Shown piece after piece: positions 3,295-35,163 of a stretch of DNA of 37,193 bases (positions are counted from its first letter, which is position 1; each line of letters begins with the position of its first letter). The DNA is taken from positions 1 through 37,193 of IMG/VR virus record IMGVR_UViG_3300042330_000608. The stretch is one strand, 5' to 3'. Under the pieces are notes generated by a model that saw only the letters and a program-made list of their open reading frames with translations, was not told where the DNA came from and ran no database searches. The position numbers and the translations under genes were made by a program. This stretch comes from a virus.

Positions 3295-4398
3295 TTATTT
3301 ATCTCTCTCTAACATTTTTACATTAATAGCTGGATATGATTCATAATTTTGTAATTGAAAATATTCAGATTTTAAAAAATTAATTGTTTTATCTAAATCA
3401 AAAGAATTTGTTTCAAAATTTAAAAAAATAGCATCTAATTCATCTGAATTTTTTAATTCACATTTATTATATTTATCAACATCTCTACTTAATTGTTCTT
3501 TAACAGCTTCTAAGCTATTATCGTACAAATGAACCTTCTTTAAATCTCCTTGTATAGCTAATGCTTTATAACCTGTAATCTTCTCTAAAATCAACGCTAA
3601 TGTAGCATATGAAGCTATATTATAAGGCAATCCAAGGAATGTATCTACACTTCTCTGACTCCAATGAAGTTCAAAACCATACTTATGAATTTTATGAACA
3701 TCAAACATTTCTTCAATATCACTTGTTTCTTCTGCTTCAAAATACATTTTTCCATTAGAGTACAACAAACATCTCTCTTTAAAACTTAAAGGTCTTACAA
3801 CTATTTGAAAACCATAATGACATGGTGGTAAAGCCATATCTTCTAAATCACCAGCATTCCAAGAATTAACAATATGATCTGGAGCTAAAGGTTTTTCTTT
3901 AAGATTAGTAATTAATCTTTGAATTTGGTCTACACCGTTATAATAACCGTCTGTCCACTTTCTCCACTGGTGTCCATAAACAGGTCCTAAATCTCCTAAT
4001 TTATAATTAGTATAATTTGGTAAAAAATGATATTTTTTATTAGATATATTTTTTAAACTACTTATAAATCTAATAAATGTCATAGGTTCTACTTTATGAA
4101 TATTACATTGTTTACAATAATAATTATAAGCATCTTTATTCCAAATATTACAACCATTATCTACAAGATATTTGATATTTGTATCACCACGTAAAAACCA
4201 TATTAACTCTGTTACAACATTTTTGTAATGGAGTTTTTTTGTGCTTATTGCTGGAAAACCATCTTTAAATTCATGTCTAAATGTATAACTCGGTATCTCA
4301 ATTCTATTAACATTTTTTCTATTAGGATCTTCATATGTATAACCATCAGTTATTATTTTATTTAACAACTGATGGTATGTTTTATCAATTTTACTCAT
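3295..4398 (-). CDS. thyA: thymidylate synthase
   Basis: Makes dTMP from dUMP using methylene-tetrahydrofolate. Visible landmarks: RGDTNIKYL (70-78), GDLGPVYGHQWR (135-146), the catalytic cysteine in LPPCHYGFQ (Cys193), WSQRSVDTFLGLPYNIASYA (dUMP binding; the Asn after LPY matches dUMP rather than dCMP specificity) and HLYDNSLEAV. The reading frame is continuous, so no intron interrupts it. At 367 residues it is longer than the roughly 264 of the bacterial enzyme, with extra residues between the N-terminal domain and the GPVYGHQWR motif. Oddly, the Arg-Arg pair that normally precedes I-x-x-x-W-N and contacts the dUMP phosphate of the partner subunit is replaced by Pro173-Asp174. The start overlaps the upstream endonuclease gene by 8 bases. 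Confidence 0.95.
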   Translation of the reverse strand: MSKIDKTYHQLLNKIITDGYTYEDPNRKNVNRIEIPSYTFRHEFKDGFPAISTKKLHYKNVVTELIWFLRGDTNIKYLVDNGCNIWNKDAYNYYCKQCNIHKVEPMTFIRFISSLKNISNKKYHFLPNYTNYKLGDLGPVYGHQWRKWTDGYYNGVDQIQRLITNLKEKPLAPDHIVNSWNAGDLEDMALPPCHYGFQIVVRPLSFKERCLLYSNGKMYFEAEETSDIEEMFDVHKIHKYGFELHWSQRSVDTFLGLPYNIASYATLALILEKITGYKALAIQGDLKKVHLYDNSLEAVKEQLSRDVDKYNKCELKNSDELDAIFLNFETNSFDLDKTINFLKSEYFQLQNYESYPAINVKMLERDK

Positions 4399-4999
4399 TA
4401 CAATATATTAAATCTGTTTTATTTTTTAATTGTCCTTTTAACATTGCGTTAAGTGTTGTTCGTTTTATTTCATAAATAAAAGAAGCTTCTGTAATTGAAT
4501 TATAAAAAATTCCAGTATTTAGTGAAATTAAAATTTTACTATTACACTTTAACGAAGATTTTGACATTTTTAATTTAGTTTCTTTTGAAAAAATTTTACC
4601 TTTATGTGATTTTGATAAATTTTCAATATGTTTTTTAGTAAAAGGTTTTTTCTTTTTACCTTTATGTGCTTTACTAATTTTATCTCTAGTTTCTTTTGAA
4701 AAAACACAAGGTTTTTCATTAGTTTTTGTTAAAACACAATTTAAACCATTTTTACCAATAACATTATAAAACTCTTGCCAGTATCTTTCTCGAATATTTA
4801 AATCTTCAAAACTACATTCTTCAATAATTTCAAACGTATGATTATTAATTCCATGCTTTTTTAAAGAACGAATTAATTTAATTTGAGTATTATTACTTTT
4901 ACTAAATGATTTATATTGTTTAAATCTTTTTTCAACATTAAGTGACCGTCCAATATATATTCTACCACTAGGACTTGTTATTTTATAAATTCCTATCAT
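4391..4999 (-). CDS. free-standing GIY-YIG homing endonuclease with NUMOD3 and NUMOD1 repeats
   Basis: 202 residues. The GIY-YIG nuclease domain is N-terminal: GIYKI (3-7), then RIYIGRS (13-19), and the conserved Glu region RERYWQEFYN (about 70-79). Next come NUMOD3-type motifs (SKETRDKISKAHKG and two further variants, about 100-148), then a NUMOD1-like C-terminal DNA-binding region (SITEASFIYEIKRTTLN). It overlaps the start of thyA by 8 bases and sits outside any recognisable intron, so it is probably a mobile endonuclease that cuts an allele lacking it. A TATATTTG box lies 24 bases upstream of the ATG, suggesting its own promoter. Confidence 0.88.
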   Translation of the reverse strand: MIGIYKITSPSGRIYIGRSLNVEKRFKQYKSFSKSNNTQIKLIRSLKKHGINNHTFEIIEECSFEDLNIRERYWQEFYNVIGKNGLNCVLTKTNEKPCVFSKETRDKISKAHKGKKKKPFTKKHIENLSKSHKGKIFSKETKLKMSKSSLKCNSKILISLNTGIFYNSITEASFIYEIKRTTLNAMLKGQLKNKTDLIYCNE

Positions 5000-13310: not shown

Positions 13311-13814
13311 TTAAAAAATTTTTATATATACTCCTGGATTTTCTTTATCCACAGAGTACCATTTAACATCTCTAATGTTATTTTCTGTTGGTAATTCTCC
13401 TTCTATACTCATAGGTATAGGAAATACATATTTTACATTATCATCTTCTATAAAATCATGAGCTGTAAATAAGTCTTGAATAATTTCAATACTATTACTA
13501 AAGTCAAATAATCTATTTGTTTCACGAACTTGATGATAACCTATAAAAATAGGATCTCCTTTTTCTTTCTTCATTTCTAAAAATTGTTCACGTACAGCTT
13601 CTATTAAATTAGGTCTTGTTTTATCAACATAACCTTTTACTATTTTTTTAGAAGAACTAAAAGATTGAATACCCAACTTCCTAAGATATTTATTTACCGT
13701 AGGAGAGCTGAATATTCCACTTTTAGTTTTAACTTTACTATTTTTTAATGAAGGTGTATTATATGGTATAAATATTAAATTATTATCATGGTAATTCTCC
13801 ATCACTTGTTTCAA
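13311..13814 (-). CDS. RusA-like Holliday junction resolvase
   Basis: 167 residues. IFIPYNTPSLKNSKVKTKSG near the N-terminus (15-34) resembles the P-x-x-x-N/K opening of RusA-like proteins. The region RLFDFSNSIEIIQDLFTAHD (about 103-122) then FIEDDNVKY fits the D-x-x-N...D...DD pattern of RusA metal-binding residues. RusA proteins cut four-way junctions during recombination and replication. Two starts are possible: ATG at 13814 and a second in-frame ATG at 13802. The longer frame overlaps the amidoligase by 29 bases and the shorter by 17. Confidence 0.65.
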   Translation of the reverse strand: MKQVMENYHDNNLIFIPYNTPSLKNSKVKTKSGIFSSPTVNKYLRKLGIQSFSSSKKIVKGYVDKTRPNLIEAVREQFLEMKKEKGDPIFIGYHQVRETNRLFDFSNSIEIIQDLFTAHDFIEDDNVKYVFPIPMSIEGELPTENNIRDVKWYSVDKENPGVYIKIF

Positions 13815-15621
13815 GATAATCTTGTTCTAAATACTCTTCTGCATAAAAATCTTCTGCACCAATAACATAACTTTGGTTTAATGGTTCAACAGGTTCTAAT
13901 TTAACAGCTTCTGATAATCCGAGTCCACTTTCATCTTTTTTTAATTGTTTATAATAACTTTCATAAACACCTTCACGATTACCAAGAACATTTTTTTCTG
14001 ATATAATTTTTGATCTTGACTTAGTATTATATTGAAAAATTTCGTTTGAAAAATCAGTTATGGTAAATTTATTAAATTGAGATGATGGATCAATACCAAA
14101 AAATGATGTACTTTTGGAAATATTTTCAATATTAAATTTAAAACTACAAGGAATTTGTTCTTCTTGAAAATAAATATTAGAAGCTTGATTATGTTGTTCA
14201 ACATTAACTTTTCTATTATTAAAATATTTAATAAGTTTATCTATAAAAGTACCAGATATTTTTTCTTTTGAAGCATATTCATATAGTATGTCACTAATAT
14301 TAAAATTATCTCTAGTTCCTTCTAATATTTGTTTTTCATTATTAATTGTATAATTAATTAATACTGAATTTAATAATAAAAATGCAATAATTTTATCAAT
14401 ATTATAAGTAGGAGTATGAATCCTAAATTCAATTGTTTGTTTATTACCAAATATTAAAGGTATCATGTTATGAATATGATAACGGGTATTAACATTCCAC
14501 TTTTGATTACCGTTAGGATCTTTAGGGTGATGATGTATTTGTGATAAATCACCTTTATCTCCAAAACTTACTAAAGTGTATCCTTCAGATAAATATGTAA
14601 AAATAGTATCAAAATTTTCAATTAAATTTTTAGAATTAATACTTTTATCTAACTTACTTAACATTTTAAAAGTATTAAAAGGAGCAGAATAATTTTTATT
14701 TTTATATCTAAAATTATATTTTTTATATAAATTAAACATACTAAAAATCTCATCTTGTACACCTAATGTTAATTTAGTAAAAGCAGTAATAAAACTAGCT
14801 GTTCTTGGTACATTTCCTAAATGTAAATGAAATGAACATGTATGATTATAATCAGTTCTATATTTTAATTCTTTTACTACATCATAAATAGTACAAACAC
14901 CTTTACTTCCTTGTAAAGGTATTGTTACGTATTCTAATCCTTCAATACTACCATCTCTTAAAGGAATTAATCCCAATCTATTACAAATGTTCTTAGGTAT
15001 TTGTCCACGTACTGATTCAAATTCTAAACCAAAAGATAAGTTTTTTATAATTTTTAAAATATCTTTTTCATTATTTAATTCTATACTTGGTTTATAAAAA
15101 TTATCATAATTTTCAGTATAATTTTTAATTATATCTTTAGAATCATAAGGTAATGAATATTTATATTCTTGTGAAGGTTTTATTTTTTTATTAAAATCTA
15201 AAGCTTTCATTAAAGAAATATGATAATATGCACCATCACTTATTTTTTCACGAAATTGATAATTTTTTAAAAATATTTCAGAATTTATAGCATTGTTTAC
15301 ACCCTCGTAAGAATGAACTTTTACACAATTTATATTTTTTTGAAAATATCCTAATTCTAATTTATCATTTATAAAACCGTATAATAAACCACTTACTGCA
15401 TTGTTTTGAACATATTTTTTATTAAAATGATCGTACACAATTTGACCAGTTTCAGATCTATAATAACTTCCATTTTCCATTAAATAACAATCTCCTGAAC
15501 TTTCAACATTTATATCTCCAATTTTGTAAAAACCTGATTCATATTTTCTACATTTGGAAATAGGTAGTTCTTCACCTTTAATTGTAACTACAAATTTTTC
15601 TTTAGTTTTTCTACTAGACAT
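13786..15621 (-). CDS. amidoligase family enzyme with extra N-terminal domain
   Basis: 611 residues. The C-terminal two thirds look like the putative amidoligase family (glutamine-synthetase-like fold): FGLEFES (197-203, the first Glu-x-Glu strand), LRDGSIEGLEYVT (221-233), SFHLHLGN (263-270) and later TIEFRIHTPTYN. These enzymes are predicted to join a carboxylate to an amine using ATP. The first roughly 185 residues have no recognised domain and are aromatic-rich, and an acidic tail follows (EDFYAEEYLEQDYLETSD). The gene overlaps the class II amidotransferase gene by 8 bases. Iyer and colleagues described phage neighbourhoods of amidoligases with ATP-grasp and amidotransferase genes, which fits what lies around it. 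Confidence 0.75.
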   Translation of the reverse strand: MSSRKTKEKFVVTIKGEELPISKCRKYESGFYKIGDINVESSGDCYLMENGSYYRSETGQIVYDHFNKKYVQNNAVSGLLYGFINDKLELGYFQKNINCVKVHSYEGVNNAINSEIFLKNYQFREKISDGAYYHISLMKALDFNKKIKPSQEYKYSLPYDSKDIIKNYTENYDNFYKPSIELNNEKDILKIIKNLSFGLEFESVRGQIPKNICNRLGLIPLRDGSIEGLEYVTIPLQGSKGVCTIYDVVKELKYRTDYNHTCSFHLHLGNVPRTASFITAFTKLTLGVQDEIFSMFNLYKKYNFRYKNKNYSAPFNTFKMLSKLDKSINSKNLIENFDTIFTYLSEGYTLVSFGDKGDLSQIHHHPKDPNGNQKWNVNTRYHIHNMIPLIFGNKQTIEFRIHTPTYNIDKIIAFLLLNSVLINYTINNEKQILEGTRDNFNISDILYEYASKEKISGTFIDKLIKYFNNRKVNVEQHNQASNIYFQEEQIPCSFKFNIENISKSTSFFGIDPSSQFNKFTITDFSNEIFQYNTKSRSKIISEKNVLGNREGVYESYYKQLKKDESGLGLSEAVKLEPVEPLNQSYVIGAEDFYAEEYLEQDYLETSDGELP

Positions 15622-17542
15622 CTTCTTCTGAGCTTATAGTTATTAAATAATCTTTAACTGTTTTTAATTTTTCTAATTTTTTATTAATTTTATCATTTCC
15701 TGTAAAATTAAGTCTTTCACAATCTTCAATTAATGTTTCTAATGTAACAAAAACTTCATCTACATTTTCATCAATTATTTCTAAGACTGTTTCTTCGTCT
15801 GAAATAAGATCATCTTCTTCAACATGTTTAGAATAATCAATATCATCTTCTTTTAAAGAATTATCAATATTAATACAGCTTACAATATGTTTTTTTAAAT
15901 CATCAATTGTTTCCATATTTTTAAATAAAGGTGTACCAAACATTGCTTCTTTTAAACTATCATTTATTCTATAAGAAATTAGATTTCCATCTTCAATTGT
16001 ATATGACTTTTCAGCACCTAATGTGAAAAAAGTATAATTTTCTTTTAATATTTTACTTTTAAATAAAATACCTTGATGTTTACAATCTTTACCATCAATA
16101 GACATATCAATAATAGGATGACAAGCACAGTCTGATAAAAGTACATGATCTATTCTTTTACCTGTTTTTATATGACTAGTCAAATATCTTTGATAAGTTG
16201 TAGAATAATCTAAAGGTGTTTGAACTTTTACACCATCAATAAAATAATGAATATTATTTTCAATACTTTTATATGTTTGAAAAGGAATAAACTTCAAAGC
16301 TTCTTCATGTTGTAAAATACTACTATCAGGATCTTTAACAAAATCATTTTTAATAAAAGGTAAACCTACTTTAGAATATAAATTTTTTTCAGCTTCAGAA
16401 ATAGATTCTTCACCTATTTTGTAAAAACCATAATGTCTAATCCACGTATAAATACCTGTAACTAAATGACCGTTTTGCCAAAATCTAAACTTATTAAAAT
16501 AAATTCTTCCTTGATATTCATTTTGAGCTTTTGTTAATTTTTCATTATAAATATTAGGAGGAACTATTTTACAATTAGTATTATTTAATACTTCTTTAAC
16601 GGCAGGTAATACAATTACTTCTTTTTGTTTATTTGAAAGATAATCATATTCAGAATAATCATCATATGTAGAATAAGCATTTGTATGATTTTTATAATAA
16701 TTACCAGTATTACTGTAAGAAGAATCTTTTTGTGTAGAATTAACTCTTGTAATAGGTGTTAATTCTGCATGTTCTACATCACCATCAGTAATTTTATAAA
16801 CATTGTTTGATTTAAATGTAAATAAATTTTTATTTACTTTACCACCAATTGCTTCTAATGATTCTTGTATAGATGAAATATATAAACTATTTTTAGTTTC
16901 TTTATAATAAAATAAAGGACGTTCTTCTTCAACATCATAATTTTTTAAATCGTATAGTTTTGAAGCACCTTTCCACACATAAACAACATTTGGTTCGTTA
17001 GTATTTGTAAACACTAATGCTGCAGCACCATTATACTTACTTAAAACTTTAAAGTTTTTATTTTTATAAATAATTTCTAATAAAATTTCAGAATCAATTT
17101 TTTGTCTTGTACTGTAATATTTATTGTAAGGCGCAACTGTAGAAACATTTTCAACTTCTTGAGATGTTTTAACATTAAACATTGGTCCAAGTTCTTTATG
17201 ATTATATAATGTTCCATTGTGACAACCAATAAATTCATAACCTGTATTATTGTCATTTGTACCAAAACCAAAAGGATGAGCGTTTACAGAATTTACAATA
17301 TTTCCAACACTTGCACTACGAGTATGACCAATTACTACAGGATATTGTACAGGATTAATTTCTCTATCTACAATAAATTTTGAATACAGTTTATCTGCAT
17401 TTAATCCATAATAAATTTCTCCATCAAAAGCTACTCCACAAGAATCTTTACCTCTGTCAATATTATATAATCCTAATTTATCAAATTTATCTTTATTAAA
17501 TTTTTTAGGGTCTTTTCCAACCCAGGCAAATATTCCACACAT
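15614..17542 (-). CDS. class II (Ntn-type) glutamine amidotransferase protein
   Basis: 642 residues. The N-terminal nucleophile is Cys2 (MCGIFAWVG), followed by the substrate-binding blocks VIGHTRSASVGN (about 70-81), VNAHPFGFG (about 83-92) and FIGCHNGTLYNH (about 103-114). This is the GlmS/PurF-type glutaminase fold, which hydrolyses glutamine and passes ammonia on. No GlmS isomerase or PurF transferase domain follows; the remaining 400 or so residues are unrecognised, with a Tyr/Ser-rich linker near 275-300 and an acidic, coiled C-terminus. It is 3 bases from the COOH-NH2 ligase gene. Initiator Met must be removed to expose Cys2. Confidence 0.85.
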   Translation of the reverse strand: MCGIFAWVGKDPKKFNKDKFDKLGLYNIDRGKDSCGVAFDGEIYYGLNADKLYSKFIVDREINPVQYPVVIGHTRSASVGNIVNSVNAHPFGFGTNDNNTGYEFIGCHNGTLYNHKELGPMFNVKTSQEVENVSTVAPYNKYYSTRQKIDSEILLEIIYKNKNFKVLSKYNGAAALVFTNTNEPNVVYVWKGASKLYDLKNYDVEEERPLFYYKETKNSLYISSIQESLEAIGGKVNKNLFTFKSNNVYKITDGDVEHAELTPITRVNSTQKDSSYSNTGNYYKNHTNAYSTYDDYSEYDYLSNKQKEVIVLPAVKEVLNNTNCKIVPPNIYNEKLTKAQNEYQGRIYFNKFRFWQNGHLVTGIYTWIRHYGFYKIGEESISEAEKNLYSKVGLPFIKNDFVKDPDSSILQHEEALKFIPFQTYKSIENNIHYFIDGVKVQTPLDYSTTYQRYLTSHIKTGKRIDHVLLSDCACHPIIDMSIDGKDCKHQGILFKSKILKENYTFFTLGAEKSYTIEDGNLISYRINDSLKEAMFGTPLFKNMETIDDLKKHIVSCINIDNSLKEDDIDYSKHVEEDDLISDEETVLEIIDENVDEVFVTLETLIEDCERLNFTGNDKINKKLEKLKTVKDYLITISSEEDV

Positions 17543-17545
17543 TTG

Positions 17546-18346
17546 TTATACTGTTTTTAATTTGTTTAATTTTGTATTAATTTTTTCAATTGTAACTTTT
17601 GTAAAATCTTTATCATTATTATTGATAGCATTTACAACATCTTCAGAATATAATTTAATTAATTCTTCAGCTTCACCATCTAAAACCATTGTTACAGCTT
17701 TAATAGTTTGTTCAAATACCCATTCAATTAATTCATTTGAATGAATCCAAAAATTAGATAATTGTCTACATTCTACACCAAAATCTTTAAATCTAAAAGA
17801 ACCTGCTTTACCATAAAGTTCACGTCTTCTTTCATCTTTATCAATTAATAATGCAGGTAATGTAACTAACATGTCAAACATTTTTACAATTTGTAATGAA
17901 TGTTCATCATTAGGATTAGGATATCCAATATGAACGTGTCCACCAACACAACGTAAATTTGTTTGACTATCTGGAGAAGGATTTACATCTTCTAAATAAG
18001 CATTAAAATCTGGTTCACATCCAAATGTACAAGCTTGTTCAGTTTGTAAATAAATAGGATTTATTTCTGCAGATGCTTTAGTTGATAAACGTAATCCATT
18101 AGCTTCTGCAATAATTGCTAAATGATCTTTTACATAATTAATATTTTCAACATATTCTTCTTTACTTGAACATGCAGGAATATTAAATTCCATTGCAATG
18201 TTGTCTAACTGAATACAATGACCTTTATCACTAATAGGATGAGGTTCATATTTTGTACCAGGGATTAAACCTTCAGCAGACACAATTTCTTTATCGTTTT
18301 CAACAAAAATTTCAGGATCACTTCCTAATTTAATATCGTATTTCAT
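17546..18346 (-). CDS. phiEco32-like COOH-NH2 ligase (amidoligase type 2)
   Basis: 266 residues matching the phage phiEco32-type COOH-NH2 ligase family: GSDPEIF (8-14), IQLDNIAMEFNIP (45-57), GCEPDFNAY (109-117), LRCVGGHVHIGYP (131-143) and VECRQLSNFW in the second half. Histidines and acidic residues in these blocks are those expected to bind metal-ATP in the glutamine-synthetase-like fold. It would form an amide or peptide-like bond; substrates are not known for the family. It lies between an amidotransferase and a C26 peptidase, so ligase and hydrolase are made together. Confidence 0.85.
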   Translation of the reverse strand: MKYDIKLGSDPEIFVENDKEIVSAEGLIPGTKYEPHPISDKGHCIQLDNIAMEFNIPACSSKEEYVENINYVKDHLAIIAEANGLRLSTKASAEINPIYLQTEQACTFGCEPDFNAYLEDVNPSPDSQTNLRCVGGHVHIGYPNPNDEHSLQIVKMFDMLVTLPALLIDKDERRRELYGKAGSFRFKDFGVECRQLSNFWIHSNELIEWVFEQTIKAVTMVLDGEAEELIKLYSEDVVNAINNNDKDFTKVTIEKINTKLNKLKTV

Positions 18347-18367
18347 TTTTAATTATTTTTAGTTATT

Positions 18368-19033
18368 TTATAATATTGTTTTATTTATAAGATTATAAAT
18401 AATTTTTAAACTTTTATTGTCTAAACTTGTAATCCATTCTGGATGAGACTGAATAGCTAATGATTTATAATCTTTATAGTAAACTATTTCAGGTTCTAAA
18501 AAATTATCAGGTAATACAATATTTTCATTATCACCATTTAAATAAACACTACTTTTAAAGTATGTTGAATGACCTATAATTTCATAACGTTCTTCAGATA
18601 AATTATAAGGATACATCATTTGATGATGATCTGAAGGAATTTCAATAATAGTTCCATCATTAAGAGAAATTGAATCTAAAGTTCCTCTATGACCTTCTAC
18701 GTGTTGAATTAATTTACCACCTGCAGCAACAGTTAAAAATTGTGCACCTCTACAAATTCCTAATTTAGGAGTATTATAATATATATTGTGAAATAAATCA
18801 TATTCTTTTGTATCTCTATCTTTATTTATATGCGTATATTTACCTAATTTTTCATTGTAATAAGAAGGATTTACATCTTCACCACCTGTAAAAACAACTA
18901 AATTTAAACGAATATCTTTATAATTTTCAACAATATTTATTTCTTTATTAGGAAACAAACCTTTTAAAAAAGTTCTAAATGATTCTCCATCATTATTAGG
19001 AAAAAATATATTTACTTTATTTTCTTCTTGCAT
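18368..19033 (-). CDS. class I glutamine amidotransferase / C26 gamma-glutamyl hydrolase-like protein
   Basis: 221 residues. The triad is clear: nucleophile Cys94 in LGICRGAQ, then His197 and Glu199 in QSHPEW. FTGGEDVNPSYYN (48-60) and SDHHQMM (134-140) are the oxyanion and substrate blocks typical of peptidase C26, including PuuD-like gamma-Glu hydrolases. It probably cleaves a gamma-glutamyl amide rather than serving a fixed synthase, since no synthase domain is attached. A second, diverged copy stands two genes upstream (20414-21055). A short AT-rich gap of about 20 bases separates it from the ligase gene. Confidence 0.82.
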   Translation of the reverse strand: MQEENKVNIFFPNNDGESFRTFLKGLFPNKEINIVENYKDIRLNLVVFTGGEDVNPSYYNEKLGKYTHINKDRDTKEYDLFHNIYYNTPKLGICRGAQFLTVAAGGKLIQHVEGHRGTLDSISLNDGTIIEIPSDHHQMMYPYNLSEERYEIIGHSTYFKSSVYLNGDNENIVLPDNFLEPEIVYYKDYKSLAIQSHPEWITSLDNKSLKIIYNLINKTIL

Positions 19034-19035
19034 TT

Positions 19036-19506
19036 TTATAATTTTTTAGTATTAATAATCATTGTACACATTTTTGAATTACTTGAAGAAATATAATCAC
19101 TTTCAGAAATAATTGCATGTTTACTAATTTTAGAATATAGTTGTTCTTTTAAATCTTGTTTAAAATCAACTAATATTAATGGTTTAATTTTACTACCAAT
19201 TTCTTTTAATTGTTTAGTCAAATTTGTAGATTTCGTAATTAAATATTTAAAATAAGCAATACTACACATTTGACAATTTCCTGTAGGATATCTCATTATG
19301 TACAAAGAATTAAACTCCTGTTTCATACTTGTAAATATTTCAGTTATTTTCATTGGATTTTCTCTTTTCATTTCACTAACTTGAAAAAAGTTATCATATT
19401 GATTAACTGGTTGTGGTACAACTACTACAGGTTTTTGTTTTTTAACATATTTTCTAACAGGTAATCCTGTTAAAGAACTAATTCTTATTGGTGCTGGACT
19501 AGTCAT
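19036..19506 (-). CDS. uncharacterised protein within the amide-bond cassette
   Basis: 156 residues. The proline/valine-rich start (KKQKPVVVVPQPVNQ, about 22-36) looks like a flexible linker. A compact domain follows with PTGNCQMCSIAYFKYL (about 75-90), ILVDFKQDLKE and DYISSSNSKMCTM near the C-terminus. The GNCQ motif and the closing SSSN-x-KM strand hint at an enzyme-like or acyl-binding fold, but no family is recognised. It is packed between the C26 peptidase and ATP-grasp genes (overlap of one base with the latter), so it is probably a component of the same pathway. Confidence 0.6.
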   Translation of the reverse strand: MTSPAPIRISSLTGLPVRKYVKKQKPVVVVPQPVNQYDNFFQVSEMKRENPMKITEIFTSMKQEFNSLYIMRYPTGNCQMCSIAYFKYLITKSTNLTKQLKEIGSKIKPLILVDFKQDLKEQLYSKISKHAIISESDYISSSNSKMCTMIINTKKL

Positions 19507-20411
19507 TACTTTGTTGCTTTTCTTAAAATTATTTTAGGTATTTCTTCAATATATTTTTGAGCACACACAGATGGTGTACCATTGTAATCACCCATTGATG
19601 ATGCTGAATTACATTCTAATAGAATATATTCCTGATAAGGTCTTAAATTACCATCTCTATCTTTAGGAGATTGTACTTTAACATCAAATGATAAAATATC
19701 TGCTCCAATAGCTTTTAAAGCTTTAACACAATCATTTACAATATCATTCCATGAATTAGGTCTAAAGAAACTTTCATTTGTTTCTAAAAACCACACACAA
19801 GTACTATCGTGAAAATGCCATTTTTCTTCATCAGGAATATCTTTTTTCAAAGCTTTTCTACATGTATAAAAACAACCATCTTCTGTAATATGTAATCTAA
19901 ATTCATGACCATAATTATAAAATTTTTCAAAAATATAATTAGATAATGTTTTACCTTGCATCCATGTTTGAAATTCTTCTAAAGATTTAATAAGCGTATT
20001 ACCATCGCCTTTAGAACCATAATGTTTTTTAGCAACAATAGGATAAGGTAAATTTTCAATAGTGTGTACAATTTCTTGTTCAGCAATTTGATTTTGAAAT
20101 CTATGTTGTCCATTTGCAAAAATATATTTATACCATTCTGCTGTTTTAACACCTACTTCTGTAAACTTTTGTTTCATTAAAAGTTTATTAGCTGAAATTT
20201 TAATAGAAGCAACCGTATTTATTTCAATACGATTACCTCCTTTAGCTACTGTATCAGGTACTTCTGTAGATGAGCCAAATCTTACAACAGAACGATACTT
20301 TAATGGTTGAATTTTTTTATGTTTTAATCTCAATATATCATGACTTGGATGTCTTGATAATATCATTGGACGAAACATTGTTAATGTTTTCTTTTTAGTT
20401 ACAACAGTCAT
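19506..20411 (-). CDS. ATP-grasp ligase (RimK-like)
   Basis: 301 residues. ATP-grasp features: YPIVAKKHYGSKGDGNTL (123-140, with the ATP-binding Lys128 and glycine-rich loop), EKFYNYGHEFRLHI (162-175), and the metal-binding end SFDVKV (241-246) and LLECNSASSM (264-273; Glu266, Asn268). ATP-grasp ligases activate a carboxylate as acyl-phosphate and couple it to an amine, as RimK does with glutamate. The N-terminal 60 residues are basic. Surrounded by an amidotransferase-type hydrolase 2 bases downstream in sequence and the 156-residue protein, it is the third ATP-dependent amide-forming enzyme of the cassette. Confidence 0.85.
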   Translation of the reverse strand: MTVVTKKKTLTMFRPMILSRHPSHDILRLKHKKIQPLKYRSVVRFGSSTEVPDTVAKGGNRIEINTVASIKISANKLLMKQKFTEVGVKTAEWYKYIFANGQHRFQNQIAEQEIVHTIENLPYPIVAKKHYGSKGDGNTLIKSLEEFQTWMQGKTLSNYIFEKFYNYGHEFRLHITEDGCFYTCRKALKKDIPDEEKWHFHDSTCVWFLETNESFFRPNSWNDIVNDCVKALKAIGADILSFDVKVQSPKDRDGNLRPYQEYILLECNSASSMGDYNGTPSVCAQKYIEEIPKIILRKATK

Positions 20412-20413
20412 AA

Positions 20414-21055
20414 TTAGTTATTTAAAAGTTTATGAATAATAAAGTTTGAAATAGGATCATTTATTTCTTCAGGATGATATTGAACACCATAAATATTATT
20501 AGTAAATTTAGCAAGTTCAATATTACTAGCAAATTTTTCAGTTGCTAAAATCATATTTTCAGGTAAATCAAAACAACCTTGGTGATGTAATGAATTAACT
20601 TCATATTTTTTAGGAAGTGACGTTTTGTCAATCATTGTAAATAAATTTTCTGTAAATTTTAATTCATCTACTTTTTCACTTCTTGATTTAGAAGAATATT
20701 CAAAAGGATAATTTTGAACTAAAGTACCTCCAAATTTTACACATAATTGTTGAAAACCTAAACATATTCCAAAAATAGGTGTTCCTGCAGCAATATATTG
20801 TTCTAAATTAATATCAAAGAAATATTGTTTCATTACATCTGTATTTGTAGTATAAAAACTAGGTAACATATCTGAATTTTGAGGTGCTAAATCTAAACCA
20901 CCTGGTAATATTAATAAATCTAATCCTTCAACAATTCCTTTTTGTGGAGCAACAATATGTATTGTTCCAAATTGTGATAACCATTCTGCATATGCTTTAG
21001 TAACTCCAAAGCTATTATCACCTGTATTCCAACCTACAATTCCAATTTTTTTCAT
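20414..21055 (-). CDS. second class I glutamine amidotransferase / C26-like hydrolase
   Basis: 213 residues. Complete triad: Cys98 in FGICLGFQ, His194 and Glu196 in VQYHPEE. LLILPGGLDLAPQ (48-60) and NSLHHQGCFD (154-163) are the C26/PuuD-type blocks. It differs from its paralog at 18368-19033 mainly in the central region, so the two may act on different gamma-glutamyl substrates. It stands 2 bases upstream of the ATP-grasp gene and about 25 bases from the cyclotransferase-like gene. Free-standing hydrolase or glutaminase partner of the ATP-grasp enzyme are both possible. Confidence 0.82.
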   Translation of the reverse strand: MKKIGIVGWNTGDNSFGVTKAYAEWLSQFGTIHIVAPQKGIVEGLDLLILPGGLDLAPQNSDMLPSFYTTNTDVMKQYFFDINLEQYIAAGTPIFGICLGFQQLCVKFGGTLVQNYPFEYSSKSRSEKVDELKFTENLFTMIDKTSLPKKYEVNSLHHQGCFDLPENMILATEKFASNIELAKFTNNIYGVQYHPEEINDPISNFIIHKLLNN

Positions 21056-21080
21056 TTTTATTTAATTTTTATTAATTTTA

Positions 21081-21632
21081 TTAATCTTCTAACATTGAAA
21101 ACAAAGTTTTAGTAAAAACCTTAGTTCCTAAATAATCTACCCAATCTCCGTTTGGTATTTTGTGAGCACTATTTAAGTTCACTTGTGAAGGATCTATAAA
21201 GAAAACAACTGCTTCTCCAAAAGGAGTTTGAATTAATTTATCTATATATAATGATTTTTTAGTCATAATATTTTCTAAATTACCTTCTAAATTATTAGAC
21301 CATTCTAAACTATACCAATCAGCTTTAGAAATTTCATATACTTCTAATAATACAGAAGTAGAACCTTCTTTTAACAATCCTGGAGAACCGTTAACACTAT
21401 AAAGAGTAAATTCAGGTAATGTATAATAAGAACCTAATAATTTAGCACTTTCTTTAATATGAAAAAAGTTTTCACATTCTTTTCTCAAATAACCATAAAC
21501 AGCAACGACTACTGTTTCATCATCAATCATTTTATGAGTTGTCATTTTTTTAATTTTTTTATTTTGATTTTTTAAATCTTTTTCACGTTGTTTTTGTTTT
21601 TTTAACTCACGTTTAAATTGTCTATTACTCAT
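21081..21632 (-). CDS. gamma-glutamylcyclotransferase-like protein with basic N-terminal helix
   Basis: 183 residues. From residue 42 the sequence is a GGCT/AIG2-like domain: VVAVYGYLRKECENF (42-56, substrate-binding YGxLR), AKLLGSYYTLPEFTLYSV (63-80), SPGLLKEGS (83-91) and SLEW, where Glu110 may be the catalytic acid. Enzymes of this fold release gamma-glutamyl groups as 5-oxoproline. The first 35 residues are a strongly basic helix (KRELKKQKQREKDLK), not part of the fold. Internal ATGs at codons 30 and 35 are alternative starts, but the ATG at 21632 abuts the primase stop, which favours the long form. A shorter paralog is at 28023-28433. Confidence 0.75.
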   Translation of the reverse strand: MSNRQFKRELKKQKQREKDLKNQNKKIKKMTTHKMIDDETVVVAVYGYLRKECENFFHIKESAKLLGSYYTLPEFTLYSVNGSPGLLKEGSTSVLLEVYEISKADWYSLEWSNNLEGNLENIMTKKSLYIDKLIQTPFGEAVVFFIDPSQVNLNSAHKIPNGDWVDYLGTKVFTKTLFSMLED

Positions 21633-21633
21633 C

Positions 21634-22668
21634 TTAAAAAGGCATCATTATTTCTCTTTCAAAAATTTCTACAGCTTTTTTAATACCTACATTTTTTATT
21701 AAATCAGAAAAATCTTTAGAATTATGTTCATCATTTATTTTTCTACTTATAAAACCTGTTTTTTCTTCAAGCTGTTTTGCAAATATTTGACCCCAATTTT
21801 CTTCTTTATCATAATCATTATCATAAAGAATTATAATTAATCCAAATCTTTCTTTTAATTCTTCAATTACACTATCTTTAGGTAATACATTTTCACATTG
21901 TAAAGATACAGCATTATAACCTGTATGTTCAACAATTGCCATTACATCTTTTAAAGATTTTGTAATAATTAAAGTACCACCGTGATCAGATACTGGTAAC
22001 TGTTCCCATCCTTGCCAAACAGAGTCATTATGACTATTTAACCATTTGTAATTTTCACTATAAGGTTGATAAATCTTATATGTTTCTTTACCATCTTTTC
22101 TTTCAATAAAAGCATAAGCGTTTTTATCACATATAATAGGTCTTTCATTAACAACAATATGTGATATAGGTTCAACATTATATTTCACTAATGTTTTTAG
22201 AGAAATACCATATTTTTGCCAAAATTGCATGTCTTGAATTTGCCATTCACGCTTAATTTTACCCAATGTAAATTTATACATTGTTTGAGATAATGCTTGT
22301 TCTCTTGAACCTGTTCTATGACCTGTATTTTTGTCAATATTTAAATTTTTAACATGAAAATCATTTTCCATATCAAAATCTATTGCAATTTTACTTAACG
22401 CTTCATAATAAGATAAACTAAATAGTATCATTACAAATTTTATACAATCACCTTTTATTCTCAATGTAAAATCATGAAAACATATTTCACTACTTTCTCC
22501 TAAAAAGAATCCAAATGAAGGATTGTGTTCATTTCTAAAAGGAGAATGAATATTTTTACCTACAATAATTTCTTGATTTAATATATAACGACTATAAACA
22601 TCGTAGTCTGTAATATATTTCATCAAAGCTTCTTTAGTTAACATTTGTTTGTTTAAATTAATAGTCAT
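21634..22668 (-). CDS. DnaG-family primase with TOPRIM domain
   Basis: 344 residues. SPFRNEHNPSFGFF (42-55) is the region that in DnaG binds zinc, here without the usual cysteine set. The TOPRIM domain spans about 232-300: GTLIITKSLKDVMAI (231-245), where Lys237 stands at the place of the usual catalytic Glu, and IIILYDNDYDKE (278-289), the D-x-D motif. It would make RNA primers for the phage polymerase. No C-terminal helicase-binding domain is present, in keeping with a short phage form. It lies next to the tRNA-like gene upstream and the cyclotransferase gene downstream. Confidence 0.82.
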   Translation of the reverse strand: MTINLNKQMLTKEALMKYITDYDVYSRYILNQEIIVGKNIHSPFRNEHNPSFGFFLGESSEICFHDFTLRIKGDCIKFVMILFSLSYYEALSKIAIDFDMENDFHVKNLNIDKNTGHRTGSREQALSQTMYKFTLGKIKREWQIQDMQFWQKYGISLKTLVKYNVEPISHIVVNERPIICDKNAYAFIERKDGKETYKIYQPYSENYKWLNSHNDSVWQGWEQLPVSDHGGTLIITKSLKDVMAIVEHTGYNAVSLQCENVLPKDSVIEELKERFGLIIILYDNDYDKEENWGQIFAKQLEEKTGFISRKINDEHNSKDFSDLIKNVGIKKAVEIFEREIMMPF

Positions 22669-28022: not shown

Positions 28023-28433
28023 TTAAATTGTTGTTAAATCTAAATGTTCTTCAGAAACTTTACCTTTTTTAGCTAAATAATAATCACCTGATTCTACTAA
28101 TGGTACATCATTCAAACTTCTTACATAAATATAAACTCCTGCATCACCAAATGGTGTTGAAATAATTTCTTTATCATAAAAAGTATTATTACCACCAGGA
28201 CTATATCCTTCAAGACAATCTACATGATAAGCTTCTTCATCTGTTACAGCATAAACTTCCATAACTACAGAAGTTGTTCCACCGTGTTTAAGTCCTGGAA
28301 ATCCACCTAAATCATGTAAATTATAAATAGGTTCACTATTAAATGTTCCTAAATACTCTGCATTTTTAATTATTCCATGATTTCTAAAACCTTTTCTTAA
28401 AGTTCCATAAACGGCTATTAATTTTTTATTCAT
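28023..28433 (-). CDS. gamma-glutamylcyclotransferase-like protein
   Basis: 136 residues, a complete minimal GGCT fold: IAVYGTLRKGFRNHG (6-20, substrate loop), AEYLGTF (25-31), LGGFPGLKHGG (42-52), and the catalytic Glu75 in VDCLEGYSPGG (71-81), then strand VYIYVRS. It should release 5-oxoproline from a gamma-glutamyl amine or peptide. It is a paralog of the longer gene at 21081-21632 but without the basic N-terminal helix, and is 6 kb away from the other amide-bond genes. Confidence 0.82.
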   Translation of the reverse strand: MNKKLIAVYGTLRKGFRNHGIIKNAEYLGTFNSEPIYNLHDLGGFPGLKHGGTTSVVMEVYAVTDEEAYHVDCLEGYSPGGNNTFYDKEIISTPFGDAGVYIYVRSLNDVPLVESGDYYLAKKGKVSEEHLDLTTI

Positions 28434-30412: not shown

Positions 30413-30625
30413 TTAATTGTTACTTAAAGAATAATAACTAACAAAATCAGATTCTTTTTGATAATCTTCAGATGATAGTTCTAAATAATCTGTAATTTGA
30501 GTAAGTGTAATATCAACACCTAAATCTTTTTTAACTTTTTCATAAATAATTAAAGGATTATTAGTCTTGTATTCATGACTTACTAAATCAATAGCTAATG
30601 CAATTGAAGAATTTTTACTTACCAT
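30413..30625 (-). CDS. small uncharacterised protein after the polymerase
   Basis: 70 residues, helical, slightly acidic: SSIALAIDLVSHEYKTNN, then IIYEKVKKDLGVDITLTQIT and DYLELSSEDYQ. The order of helices with a LGVDITLTQITDYL segment could be a helix-turn-helix. It overlaps the end of the polymerase gene by 7 bases, so it is translationally coupled to it. Confidence 0.55.
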   Translation of the reverse strand: MVSKNSSIALAIDLVSHEYKTNNPLIIYEKVKKDLGVDITLTQITDYLELSSEDYQKESDFVSYYSLSNN

Positions 30626-31517
30626 AATGTTAGTTGATTAAAATTTGCAATCTGATCAATTATTTTTTGTGTGGAAGCAATATAATAATTATAATCAACA
30701 TTATAATCTTGCCAAGATGTTTCTTTATGAACATTATAAATAATTACAGGTTGTCCAACATTTACATGTTGTAAAGTACCTTGTCCATATTTTTGTTTAA
30801 ATAAATAAGCACCTTTTTTACTAAAATAATATCTGTTTAATTGTTGTTGAATTTCACCATTCCAATATACTACAAAGTCTTTACCTATTTTGTTAGATTT
30901 ACAATAATCATAAATATGTAATCCATATTTATCAGGATTAGTTATAAATTCTTTAGGTGAAATATCTTTAGTATAATAAGCTTCTAAAGCTTTAGCAATA
31001 ACTAATTCGTCAACTGAATTACCTAATACTGGATTTGGTACAAATAAACCTTTTTGTTTATATTTACTATCTTTTGTAATAGCTACATAATTATTAACAT
31101 TTTTATAAACAATTTTATTATAATATTCATGTTCTAAATCTAATTTAAATTTATTACACACCATATCTAATATTTCTTGATATTGTTTAAGCATATGTCT
31201 TGGAACAATTACTTCGATACCGTCTGTATTTGCTGAAACAACTTGCCATTTATTAATAATACATTGTTCAATACATTTAGTAAGTATTAATTGTCCAATA
31301 AGTCTTAATCTCATAGCACCTTCTGGATAATATAACCAACTATGTTGATTATCTAATAAACCTGATGTACTATTTAAAATAAGTTTCAAGAATGAATCTT
31401 TAGCTTTATCTTTAGCTTTTTTAGCAATAATACGCTCATCTTTAACTTCTAAATAACGTTGTAATACTTCTGGAAATCTAATACAATTATAATTAATAAT
31501 TAAATTTGGGTATAGTG
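30619..31517 (-). CDS. family B DNA polymerase, exon 2
   Basis: The exon begins with CA of a serine codon and continues LYPNLIINYN (end of motif A), FPEVLQRYLEVKDER, motif B KLILNSTSG (365-373 in the spliced protein) and motif C SANTDGIEV (Asp419). In motif C the first Asp of the usual D-T-D is Asn, a variant that leaves the catalytic second Asp in place. The rest is the thumb region. There is no ATG at its beginning, which shows it is an exon and not a free gene. Spliced length is 619 residues. Confidence 0.9.
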
Positions 31518-31526
31518 CATATACCC

Positions 31527-32249
31527 TTAATCCAGTATGTTTCCATCTGGCTGGACTATATTATCTTTTAAAACTTTTATCCATTTATATCCATATATTG
31601 TAGGTTTTGCACCACTACATACTGAATATATGTTATGTATTTTATAAGAAGGATTTTCAACAATAATATCTTTAACTTTATTCCAAATTTTAATTAATGT
31701 TTTACCATCTTTAGAATATTGATAAATTAAATATTTTGTATGATTATCTGAAACTTTCTGTCTCATTTGATTTTTTATTTCAGGATTATTTTTCCAAAAA
31801 TTAGATGTTTTAATTCCATTTTCTTTATTTAAATTTGGAAATTTTAAATCTCTTTTTTTTCTTGATTCTGATAATTTTTTTCTAGTTTCATCTAATATTA
31901 TTAAATTTGTAGAAGAATCTTGTCTTAAATTATATCCATAACTACGATTTGTAGTATTATAATAATTCATCCAAAATAATTCTTTTTCTTTCATAATATT
32001 TTCAAAATTTTCTATATTTATATCAATAATTTCTAAAATAAAATATTCAAAATTTTCTTTACCATGTTTCCACCAACTATTAATAAAATGTTGATTTTCA
32101 CGTTTTTTATCTTTTGAATTTAATCCTCCTATATGATTATATATTCTTTGTCTAATATTTATAGACTTTCCTATATATTTTTTATCATTTATCATATTTC
32201 TAATACAATAAATACCACATAACCCTTCATGTAATTTGTTTGTTTTCAT
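31527..32249 (-). CDS. intron-encoded GIY-YIG homing endonuclease
   Basis: 240 residues. CGIYCIRNMINDKKYIGKS (11-29) is the GIY...YIG core, with the catalytic Glu region MKEKELFWMNYYN (about 86-98). A NUMOD-like DNA-binding part follows (SESRKKRDLKFPNLNKENG), and a C-terminal repeat near GYKWIKVL. Its last codons (IVQPDGNILD) overlap the intron's P7 3' strand and P9, so protein and ribozyme share sequence. A TATATTTG box is 20 bases upstream of the ATG, inside the intron; T4 I-TevI is likewise driven by a promoter within its intron. It would mobilise the intron into intron-less polymerase genes. Confidence 0.9.
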   Translation of the reverse strand: MKTNKLHEGLCGIYCIRNMINDKKYIGKSINIRQRIYNHIGGLNSKDKKRENQHFINSWWKHGKENFEYFILEIIDINIENFENIMKEKELFWMNYYNTTNRSYGYNLRQDSSTNLIILDETRKKLSESRKKRDLKFPNLNKENGIKTSNFWKNNPEIKNQMRQKVSDNHTKYLIYQYSKDGKTLIKIWNKVKDIIVENPSYKIHNIYSVCSGAKPTIYGYKWIKVLKDNIVQPDGNILD

Positions 32250-32268
32250 AATTATTTATATATTTTTA

Positions 32269-32276
32269 CAAATATA
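32269..32276 (-). promoter_or_regulatory. promoter-like TATATTTG box inside the polymerase intron
   Basis: On the minus strand TTTCATATATTTGTAAAAAT, with TATATTTG matching the Bacteroidota -7 element, 20 bases before the GIY-YIG start codon. It is located in the loop that carries the endonuclease gene, outside the ribozyme core. Confidence 0.55.
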
Positions 32277-32528
32277 TGAAATAATTAGTTAATATCCAAA
32301 TTAATTAGGATAATTTTTATATCTTTTTAAGATATTTTTAAAAGTTCCCTGTTTAGTCTCTGAACCTTCATCCTATAAGGACGCTTGGATGCGGATTGAC
32401 CAATCTTTATCTTTTTTACTATACTGAGGTAATTATTCTCACCACACAATATATTACTATTTGTGTTTAGTAGATAAAGCTCTAAGGTTATTCCCGTCAA
32501 TTTAAGGAATTTTAATTACGCCACTTTA

Positions 32529-33489
32529 ACGCAACATCACTCGTAACTACTTGATAATCACTATCAGTTATATATGTTTCATTTTCATTAACACTATGTA
32601 ATCCACCAATACCATAAGTTAATTTTATAGAAGTATTATTTACATTTACAACAAGTTCTTTACTAAAACTATTTTGAGAATTTAATATTTCTGTCCAAAG
32701 ATTTTGAAATATTGGTAATTTAAATCCTGGTTCAAAACCATGTAAACATTCATTTAAATGTAATGTAGGTTTCTCAAATCTTTGATCCCTAATACTTTTA
32801 AGCTCATTACCTGTAATTTTACAATAATCTTGTAATAACGCCTCAGAAGCAATTTTTGGAGCATCCCATGACCAACAATTTAGTTTATAATCTTTAGAAA
32901 TATTTCCTCGTAACTTAATTTCATCTTCCATTTTTTCAGTAAGAAGACGTAATATACCTAAATCATGTAACTGATTGTATTCTCTCAATTTAGGTAAATC
33001 TTCTAAAGTTAATATAGAATCAGGTTTATAAGGTAGTTCTTGCACTACATCATAACCAAGTTGTATTCCTAAAGATTTTAAACTAATTTTCTTAGACATT
33101 CTAAGCATTTTAGACCAATATAAAAATAAATCTATATCTGTCCAAGTAACTTTACCATATTTTAAACGTTTAATTAAATCATCATAATGATCATTAATAA
33201 TACTATCAGATAAGTTTTTCAATGTTTCACATACACTTTTATGTGAACCATATTTTAAACTATCATAATTTTGTAATATATATTTAATAACCATATTATC
33301 ATAATGAATACCATTAAAACTTATGAGGAATCCATTAAAGGTTTTAAAATAGTTATAAATTTTATGAATATCATTTTGTTGTTCGCTAATCTCATAAAAC
33401 GTTTTTTGTTTTGTAACATAATTTTCTATACCAACACAGAAGTAATTACGATATACTTCTATATCATACAATATTTTTCCATCATTCAA
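32529..33489 (-). CDS. family B DNA polymerase, exon 1 (3'-5' exonuclease domain)
   Basis: 320 codons plus one base. Exonuclease motif I DIE (Asp9, Glu11), motif II SFNGIHYDNMV (57-67; Asn59, Asp64), and a motif III candidate YNQLHDLGIL (Asp176). The palm begins near YGIGGLHSV and VVTSDVA (Asp318), the first half of motif A, where the intron cuts. Unspliced reading would add LKWRN and stop. The start ATG at 33489 has a purine-rich AAAGGATGG a few bases upstream, a fair ribosome-binding site. It is the replicative polymerase of the phage. Confidence 0.9.
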
Positions 33490-34028: not shown

Positions 34029-34496
34029 TTAATTATTTAATTTTTGTTGCACTAATTTTTTAAAACGTTTAGCTAATTGACTATTTTCAAAAGTTTTTAA
34101 ACCTTTTCTCATTTCTTCAACGTCTTTAAATATGTCATTTAAAGATAAACAAGGTTTATTCATTAAGATATATTCTTCAGCTTTTTCTTTTATTGAGAAA
34201 TATTTAACATTTTCTGAATGTTTTACATTAAAATCTTTTTCACAATATCTAATATTTAAAGCTTTATCAACAATATAAATTGGAGTATAATATTTATCAA
34301 TATTTTTAAAAATATCAACACCATCTTCAGTTGTGAATAATGGTTGTTTAATATGTTGTAATTGTTTTGATCTTAATAATATAGAATTTTTATTATCAAA
34401 ATCAACCATAATTTTATTATCTAATAATCTAAAACAAGTTATTATACCTAATGTTGTTTTATCACCTATGGTGAAAATTTCTTCTTTTTTATTCAT
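34029..34496 (-). CDS. uncharacterised phage protein with TEDGVDIF and KPCLSLNDI motifs
   Basis: 155 residues. An N-terminal beta module (IGDKTTLGIITCFRLLDNK) is followed by LFTTEDGVDIFKNIDKYY (about 53-70) and a C-terminal pattern FSIKEKAEEYILMNKPCLSL (about 101-120). These two blocks recur in uncharacterised proteins of Bacteroidota phages, often as modules combined with others. No activity known. It overlaps the endonuclease gene by 8 bases. Confidence 0.7.
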   Translation of the reverse strand: MNKKEEIFTIGDKTTLGIITCFRLLDNKIMVDFDNKNSILLRSKQLQHIKQPLFTTEDGVDIFKNIDKYYTPIYIVDKALNIRYCEKDFNVKHSENVKYFSIKEKAEEYILMNKPCLSLNDIFKDVEEMRKGLKTFENSQLAKRFKKLVQQKLNN

Positions 34497-35163
34497 TTTT
34501 ATATTTCCATTTAAATTTTCCAGCAGTTTTTTGTTTGTTTAAACAGCAGTTTTTAATACTATTTCTTTCTATATTACAAATATTTGAAGCTTCTGTAATA
34601 GAAATATATTCATTTAAAAAATTATTATTTAAATCAAACTGTAATACTGATTTAGCATTATGATTTAATTTTTTCCAAGTAAAAGACTTATCTTTTGACC
34701 AATGAAATTTATTCGCTGTTTTATACGAACCTCTTAAACATTTTTGAATATTTGTAATAGGTGTATTTGATAATAATGAAGCTTCTCTTGTAGAAGTGAA
34801 TGTGTTTAATAATAAACCAGTTTTATCAAATTGATAAACTTTAAATTCTTTATACTGAGAAAAACCTTTACCACCATCACCACCTATTGTATGATTACAT
34901 AAATCATAATTTAAATCGTTATAGTATTTAATCCAATAAATTTCTCTTTCTTGCCAATTATAACATTCTTCAATAATTTCAATAATAGGTTTTAATTCTT
35001 TTTTTAATAAAGATTTAATCCAATTACTTCTATGAGTATTTTCATTTTCTAAATGATATTTAGAACAATGATAATAATATCGTTTTTGAATGTTAGTTGT
35101 TTTACCAATATATCTAATTTTATTAGTAATTGGATCTTTTAAAGAATAAATGTAATATTTCAT
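34489..35163 (-). CDS. free-standing GIY-YIG homing endonuclease with two NUMOD1-like repeats
   Basis: 224 residues. YYIYSL (3-8) and IRYIGKTTNIQKR (16-28) form the nuclease core; the Glu region is WQEREIYWIKYYN (about 70-82). Two NUMOD1-like repeats follow: VYQFDKTGLLLNTFTSTREA (about 110-129) and VLQFDLNNNFLNEYISITEA (about 172-191), each with a W/K end. No intron core flanks it. It sits with a TATATTTG box 22 bases before its ATG, as do the other two GIY-YIG genes, and overlaps the gene downstream by 8 bases. Confidence 0.88.
   Translation of the reverse strand: MKYYIYSLKDPITNKIRYIGKTTNIQKRYYYHCSKYHLENENTHRSNWIKSLLKKELKPIIEIIEECYNWQEREIYWIKYYNDLNYDLCNHTIGGDGGKGFSQYKEFKVYQFDKTGLLLNTFTSTREASLLSNTPITNIQKCLRGSYKTANKFHWSKDKSFTWKKLNHNAKSVLQFDLNNNFLNEYISITEASNICNIERNSIKNCCLNKQKTAGKFKWKYKNE

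Follow-up and report, generated by a model that had tools for sequence, protein, structure and literature searches.

A widespread phage cassette of amide-bond enzymes with a near-obligate core, found in a putative crAss-like phage fragment

The stretch of DNA analysed here, called the window in the following, is the IMG/VR virus record IMGVR_UViG_3300042330_000608 at its full length of 37,193 bases (24.6% G+C). It carries a cassette of predicted amide-bond-forming and amide-bond-cleaving enzymes, made up of eight co-directional genes on the minus strand (13786-21632) with intergenic gaps of -8 to +25 bases. A preliminary description had named these eight consecutive genes and assigned seven of them to protein families. 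All eight open reading frames (ORFs) lie as described, and searches against Pfam and PHROG confirm the seven assignments.

Three of the genes encode ligases. AMID (13786-15621, 611 amino acids (aa)) is an amidoligase; it reaches 18.2 bits against PF12224 Amidoligase_2, below the gathering cut-off of 22, yet its match to phrog_2443, 'amidoligase enzyme', is strong (E=6.8e-32). LIG2 (17546-18346, 266 aa) is a phiEco32-type COOH-NH2 ligase (type 2; PF14395, 39.5 bits, cut-off 25; phrog_3815, E=8e-78), and GRASP (19506-20411, 301 aa) is a RimK-like ATP-grasp ligase (phrog_2599, E=2e-19). Between AMID and LIG2 lies GATII (15614-17542, 642 aa), a class II glutaminase of the Ntn (N-terminal nucleophile) type with Cys2 (PF13522 GATase_6, 35.4 bits, cut-off 27). 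These four core enzymes are all linked on one strand in the window. They are accompanied by two proteins of the class I amidotransferase fold, namely the gamma-glutamyl hydrolase-like C26a (18368-19033, 221 aa; PF07722 Peptidase_C26, 68.3 bits, cut-off 20.5) and C26b (20414-21055, 213 aa; 81.4 bits against the same model and cut-off), and by GGCTa (21081-21632), a divergent protein similar to gamma-glutamyl cyclotransferases whose N-terminus is extended by a basic stretch (PF06094 GGACT, 37.1 bits, cut-off 22.8). The eighth gene (19036-19506) encodes a 156-aa protein of a sporadic family, which has no Pfam or NCBIfam match and no convincing PHROG match, as the preliminary description had also left it unassigned. 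None of the cassette proteins contains a membrane-like segment, since their 19-residue hydropathy maxima do not exceed 1.62.

A scan of 50,697 phage records detected LIG2, the signature ligase of the cassette, in 313 of them, and over 500 stretches of environmental virus contigs matched it as well. Among 84,980 cellular genomes only 11 contigs of metagenome-assembled genomes (MAGs) carry it, and LIG2 is therefore practically restricted to phages. Using iterative profiles, we tabulated 80 IMG/VR loci seeded on LIG2, 80 seeded on the ATP-grasp ligase, and the 11 MAG contigs; linkage was counted in 77 non-redundant LIG2 loci with at least 6 kb on each side. GATII and the amidoligase are present in all 77 of them and the ATP-grasp ligase in 72, while the five loci without it sit on contigs of 160-353 kb. 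When the ATP-grasp ligase serves as the seed, all four core genes are found in 35 of 35 loci with full flanks. A search for the ATP-grasp ligase or GGCT elsewhere in the records that have no nearby copy returned nothing and is uninformative. The core genes also diversify together (Spearman rho of distances 0.56-0.81; 0.68-0.83 between core and primase), and the hydrolases follow the core less closely (0.37-0.54). The same core, in related orders and near the primase, occurs in phages phiEco32, 7-11, LUZ24, tf, PA11, CVT22 and Slicky01. The linkage of the core is near-obligate, and its genes are probably inherited together. The set had previously been called unusually complete, which does not hold: it is standard in hundreds of phages, with the full core in 72 of the 77 loci.

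Enzymes of the C26 and GGCT families are almost as constant when taken together. C26 was found in 63 of the 77 loci, GGCT in 45, and at least one of the two in 75 (both in 33, C26 only in 30, GGCT only in 12, neither in 2; Fisher p=0.034, uncorrected for kinship). C26 and GGCT thus tend to stand in for each other. Known members of these two unrelated families share their chemistry, the cutting of gamma-glutamyl amides.

For LIG2 and AMID, searching the PDB by sequence alone gave nothing useful. The AlphaFold model of LIG2, with a predicted local distance difference test (pLDDT) score of 96, is a compact member of the glutamine synthetase/gamma-glutamylcysteine synthetase (GS/GCS) fold. It compares at Z ~14 with glutamine synthetase, GshAB, YbdK and Dop (13-14 for PafA and Dop), and Foldseek E-values go down to 3e-5. 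The model of AMID (pLDDT 84) consists of a beta-rich N-terminal part (about residues 1-135), a catalytic domain of GS/GCS fold (about 173-484) and a tail of low confidence. Foldseek alone found nothing below E 0.001 with this model; structure comparison gave Z ~11 to glutamine synthetases, YbdK, Dop and PafA (10-11 for Dop and PafA). On the basis of these models, ATP-dependent carboxylate-amine ligase chemistry is likely for both proteins. The similarities to glutamine synthetase, YbdK, Dop and PafA are tied, and therefore the folds of LIG2 and AMID do not choose between substrates. A recognisable sequence relationship between LIG2 and AMID was rejected, as only the HxH stretch aligned (12% probability), although both have the GS fold. 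GRASP scores below the Pfam cut-offs as a single sequence; its family profile is closest to RimK and alpha-L-glutamate ligases (1.9e-11).

An audit of the active sites, covering about 100 to 173 homologues per family, showed that the catalytic residues of the ligases and GATII, the Cys-His-Glu triad of C26 and the Glu of GGCT are almost never lost. LIG2 keeps D10, E12, E53, H137, H139, E192 and R194, including the HxH and ExR residues, in 162 homologues. In AMID, the residues E200, E202, E230, H265, H267, E398 and R400 are unchanged wherever they are aligned (166 homologues). K76, E170, R172, D243 and E266 of GRASP occur in 173 of 173 homologues, and N268 is almost never lost. The glutaminase domain of GATII comprises about residues 1-225, and Cys2, R75, N109, G110 and D150 are conserved among its homologues. 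Its best PDB matches are the glutaminase domains of PurF and GlmS, with no conserved synthase half, and its C-terminal part is variable, poorly conserved and without a Pfam family match. Both C26 proteins have a full triad in their sequence (Cys94/His197/Glu199 in C26a, Cys98/His194/Glu196 in C26b). The C26 family profile matches Lin1909, the probable glutamine amidotransferases 7d4r and 7d50, and PuuD in the PDB. The best NCBIfam match of C26a is gamma-glutamyl-CDP-amidate hydrolase, at 29 bits against a cut-off of 250, and therefore indicates kinship only. The GGCT family is closest to YtfP, and its catalytic Glu is present in 97 of 99 homologues; GGCTa carries a short insertion at the catalytic LD-x-LEG motif. 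A second, canonical member, GGCTb (28023-28433, minus strand; motifs YGTLRKG and VDCLEGY; family HMM (hidden Markov model) E=2e-47), lies outside the cassette, about 6 kb upstream of GGCTa; the cassette copy is the divergent one. The preliminary description, correct in its eight genes, had missed this copy. It had seen Cys2 of GATII and the complete C26 triads, which are indeed there. It fared well, too, on the points on which it had staked itself: both GS-type ligases adopt the expected fold in the models, their relatives keep the catalytic residues, and the linkage across the 77 loci is near absolute.

The DNA primase gene (21634-22668, minus strand; phrog_12622, E=1.7e-67) directly adjoins GGCTa as the immediate upstream neighbour, and the cassette is thus located beside a replication gene. 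Among named phages, Cellulophaga phage phi14:2 and the gut phage cr108_1, two Crassvirales of the Steigviridae, are closest to the window, together with a Leptolyngbya phage. In phi14:2 and cr108_1 the genes are arranged as in the window, in the order primase, (GGCT), ATP-grasp ligase, (C26), LIG2, GATII and amidoligase, followed by a RusA-type nuclease. The ATP-grasp ligase of the window is 46% identical to that of phi14:2 and 37% to that of cr108_1. The primase adjoins the cassette in phi14:2, whereas one small gene lies between them in cr108_1. The cassette of phi14:2 lacks C26 and that of cr108_1 has no annotated GGCT, whereas the window has both. In both phages the amidoligase gene is followed by one for a uracil-DNA glycosylase, for which the window has no counterpart in this position; in phi14:2 the glycosylase gene and a small gene precede RusA. 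Capsid and terminase genes were not identified in this 37-kb fragment; kinship is taken from the gene order and the best matches to phi14:2 and cr108_1, which suggest a crAss-like phage as its source. Most of the cassette starts are preceded by A-rich sequence with no evident Shine-Dalgarno motif. Such starts are usual in Bacteroidota and, together with the G+C content of 24.6%, suggest a host from this phylum.

The cassette itself is already in print, as are its gene content and a suggested function, and it has been discussed since 2009-2013. Under the name 'peptidoglycan modification cassette', the four core enzymes, accompanied by GGCT, C26 or both, were described near the primase, in the early or replication region, of RIO-1-like, phiEco32-like and LUZ24-like phages (Hardies 2013 and Iyer 2009, as cited; Duhaime 2017, PMC5498523; for UFV-P2, PMC3890496). 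Those cassettes have a protein X (RQWKRG), and several have Cys-rich GATII C-termini. The window differs from them in that it lacks X, has a long beta-rich N-terminus of AMID and carries two C26 and two GGCT genes. What we add is this occurrence in a crAss-like setting, where X is absent and C26 and GGCT are each present twice, together with a quantification of the core, the either-or pattern of C26 and GGCT, and the audit of active sites.

Known pathways offer a parallel. In EgtA/EgtC (ergothioneine), PuuA/PuuD (putrescine), BtrJ/BtrG (butirosin) and Cj1418/Cj1417 (capsule phosphoramidate), a gamma-glutamyl-forming enzyme is paired with a class II GATase, a C26 enzyme, a GGCT and a C26 remover, respectively. 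In each of them the gamma-glutamyl group that was put on, or that an intermediate carries, is taken off later by an enzyme of a class that also occurs in the cassette. However, no orthologue of these pathways was found, and the phage set comprises several possible removers and three ligases.

Our preferred reading, which we hold tentatively and with somewhat less than even confidence, is that the cassette encodes an amide-bond pathway peculiar to phages, active early and in the cytosol, in which a gamma-glutamyl handle is attached to a substrate, the substrate is amidated or extended, and the handle is removed again. From the computed enzyme classes, GS-type folds, active-site conservation, linkage and C26/GGCT presence we infer the handle itself, the order of the reactions and a soluble, amine-bearing precursor as substrate, which might be a small peptide, an envelope precursor or a polyamine-like amine. 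LIG2 would use ATP to join the gamma-glutamyl group to the amine of this substrate as a removable handle. AMID, with GATII as its glutaminase, would then convert a carboxylate of the intermediate to an amide or couple a second amine, and the RimK-like ATP-grasp ligase would add an amino acid, probably an acidic one such as glutamate. Finally, a C26 hydrolase or GGCT would strip off the handle, either chemistry being sufficient. The preliminary description had likewise proposed that a gamma-glutamyl tag is built and trimmed. This logic, already published, gains support from the 75 of 77 loci that have C26, GGCT or both; whether a wall peptide, a protein or a metabolite is the target is left undecided by the data. 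An early role is in line with a relative, PSA-HP1, whose predicted cassette genes are transcribed immediately on infection (PMC7082346). Two MAG contigs, L103 (5174-10066) and L106 (953-4571), encode LIG2, C26 and GGCT with no amidoligase, GATII or ATP-grasp ligase in view; L103 looks like phage because it encodes lytic tail and RNA polymerase-like proteins. These contigs and the replacement of C26 by GGCT fit a handle that is added by LIG2 and removed by either enzyme.

Several points weigh against such a pathway. The tied fold likenesses of LIG2 and AMID to glutamine synthetase, YbdK, Dop and PafA name no substrate. The role of GATII may be to supply ammonia and not to cleave a handle, and the C26 proteins may be plain glutaminases. 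In two of the 77 loci no C26 or GGCT gene lies nearby, the mutual replacement of the two families is weak and not corrected for phylogeny (p=0.034), and the contigs L103 and L106 are fragments.

The published view holds that cytosolic amidation or extension of peptidoglycan precursors alters the wall and so excludes superinfecting phages or times lysis. Known ligase and amidotransferase pairs, MurT/GatD and AsnB/LtsA, do act on wall precursors, but the stem-peptide D-Glu lacks the free alpha-amino group that GGCT needs, which makes GGCT chemically doubtful as a wall-degrading enzyme. Neither Pfam nor NCBIfam searches matched a Mur-type domain in the cassette, and no muropeptide data were found. 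The proposal goes back to Hardies 2013, who made it by inference; it is cited from there in Duhaime 2017 (PMC5498523) and PMC11945000 (2025) and was adopted in PMC7082346. The hosts named for phages among the matches listed are Gram-negative bacteria; however, a group of Arthrobacter phages likewise encodes a GGCT and an amidoligase side by side (PMC5513430), possibly of other families than those described here. Altogether we consider wall modification plausible but less likely than the handle pathway. A lower probability is given to protein tagging, in which the ligases would put a peptide or glutamate chain on a protein of the host or the phage, in the manner of RimK with ribosomal protein S6 and of PafA with Pup, and the hydrolases would trim it. 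The closeness of the ATP-grasp ligase to RimK and alpha-L-glutamate ligases speaks for it, and Iyer and co-workers, cited in PMC4431377, advanced peptide modification as a general role of linked ligases of this kind. With the pupylation enzymes PafA and Dop, LIG2 (Z ~13-14) and AMID (Z 10-11) have the GS fold in common, and the models resemble them about as well as other GS-fold enzymes, but this likeness is tied with that to plain glutamine synthetases. Moreover, known C26 and GGCT enzymes act mostly on small molecules, and no Pup or other tag protein was recognised in the cassette, although no dedicated search for one was made.

The position near the primase, in the replication region of most lineages, would also suit a hypermodification of DNA bases by amidation or amino-acid attachment that shields the genome from restriction, and the Gordonclarkvirinae carry the cassette and resist restriction by no known mechanism (PMC11990801). 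Two LUZ24-like phages with the cassette argue otherwise, as virion DNA of tf is cut by RsaI, HpaI, EcoRV, SmaI and HaeIII (PMC3517423) and that of U17 is sensitive to 11 of 16 enzymes (PMC11945000). General heavy DNA modification is disfavoured on these grounds; with no hydroxymethylase, DpdA or glycosyltransferase scaffold enzyme recognised in the cassette either, we judge this function very improbable. A new gamma-glutamyl-derived compound or attachment that shields the phage from host immunity seems quite improbable to us; if made, it would explain the resistance of Kuravirus-type phages to restriction-modification, for which no mechanism is known. An auxiliary nitrogen or amino-acid metabolism, in which glutamine, glutamate and ammonia are recycled for growth, was proposed for the planctomycete Phage-ZRK32 with its GATase, amidoligase, glutathione synthase-like and GGCT genes (PMC10945688). 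Three ATP-consuming ligases are no obvious recycling set, however, and since LIG2 is nearly absent from the 84,980 cellular genomes, it is no evident borrowed host gene; this explanation is highly unlikely in our opinion.

The cassette is a common multi-gene biochemical module of phages. Our analysis defines its near-obligate core and documents the module in a group of crAss-like phages. E. coli phages of the BASEL collection (Bas86, Bas94 and the Kuravirus-type Bas87) carry the cassette and allow a genetic test of its function.

Further proteins accompany the cassette in part of the loci. The 156-aa protein has homologues in 6 of 92 loci, the window included, and was rejected as a core component for this reason. 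The family comprises the window protein (19036-19506) and members in L003, L015, L026, L028 and L093, with three copies in the Leptolyngbya phage region; a viral scan with the window protein alone found nothing. It carries the motifs PTxNCQ, DI and S(T,S)NxSxM and may be an enzyme with an essential Cys. Protein X (about 190 aa, motif RxPxRQWKRG) lies between LIG2 and the amidoligase in 42 of the 77 loci (e.g., L005 8378-8959, L011 8704-9321) and is absent from crAss-type loci. That it is the missing N-terminal part of the crAss-type amidoligase was rejected, as profile comparison gave a probability of 0.1%.

Just upstream of LIG2, fast-evolving proteins of 240-400 aa, often paired, are encoded in L002 (13671-15572), L005 (5776-7589), L009 (6091-7023), L011 (10130-12311) and others; none was seen in the window. 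A small-Cys-Phe/Tyr-small motif occurs within the first 120 residues of 25 of 79 ORFs upstream of LIG2, against 58 of 1058 in the background. They are candidates for a hidden partner or substrate of the cassette. Genes for a phosphoribosyl pyrophosphate (PRPP) synthetase and a nicotinate/nicotinamide phosphoribosyltransferase lie a few kb from the cassette in L003 (8549-12758), L006 (4005-6568) and L009 (1991-4272). This NAD-salvage pair was rejected as a functional partner: these three named phages, which belong to different groups, have it close to the cassette, but no environmental locus does.

A PADLOC search gave no match. Elsewhere in the window, the sole long ORF on the plus strand (92-2497) encodes 801 aa and has no PHROG match. 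A DNA polymerase is split over two ORFs (30619-33489), between which a GIY-YIG-type homing endonuclease gene (31527-32249) lies. More homing endonuclease genes are located at 34489-35163 and at 4391-4999, the latter overlapping the thymidylate synthase gene.

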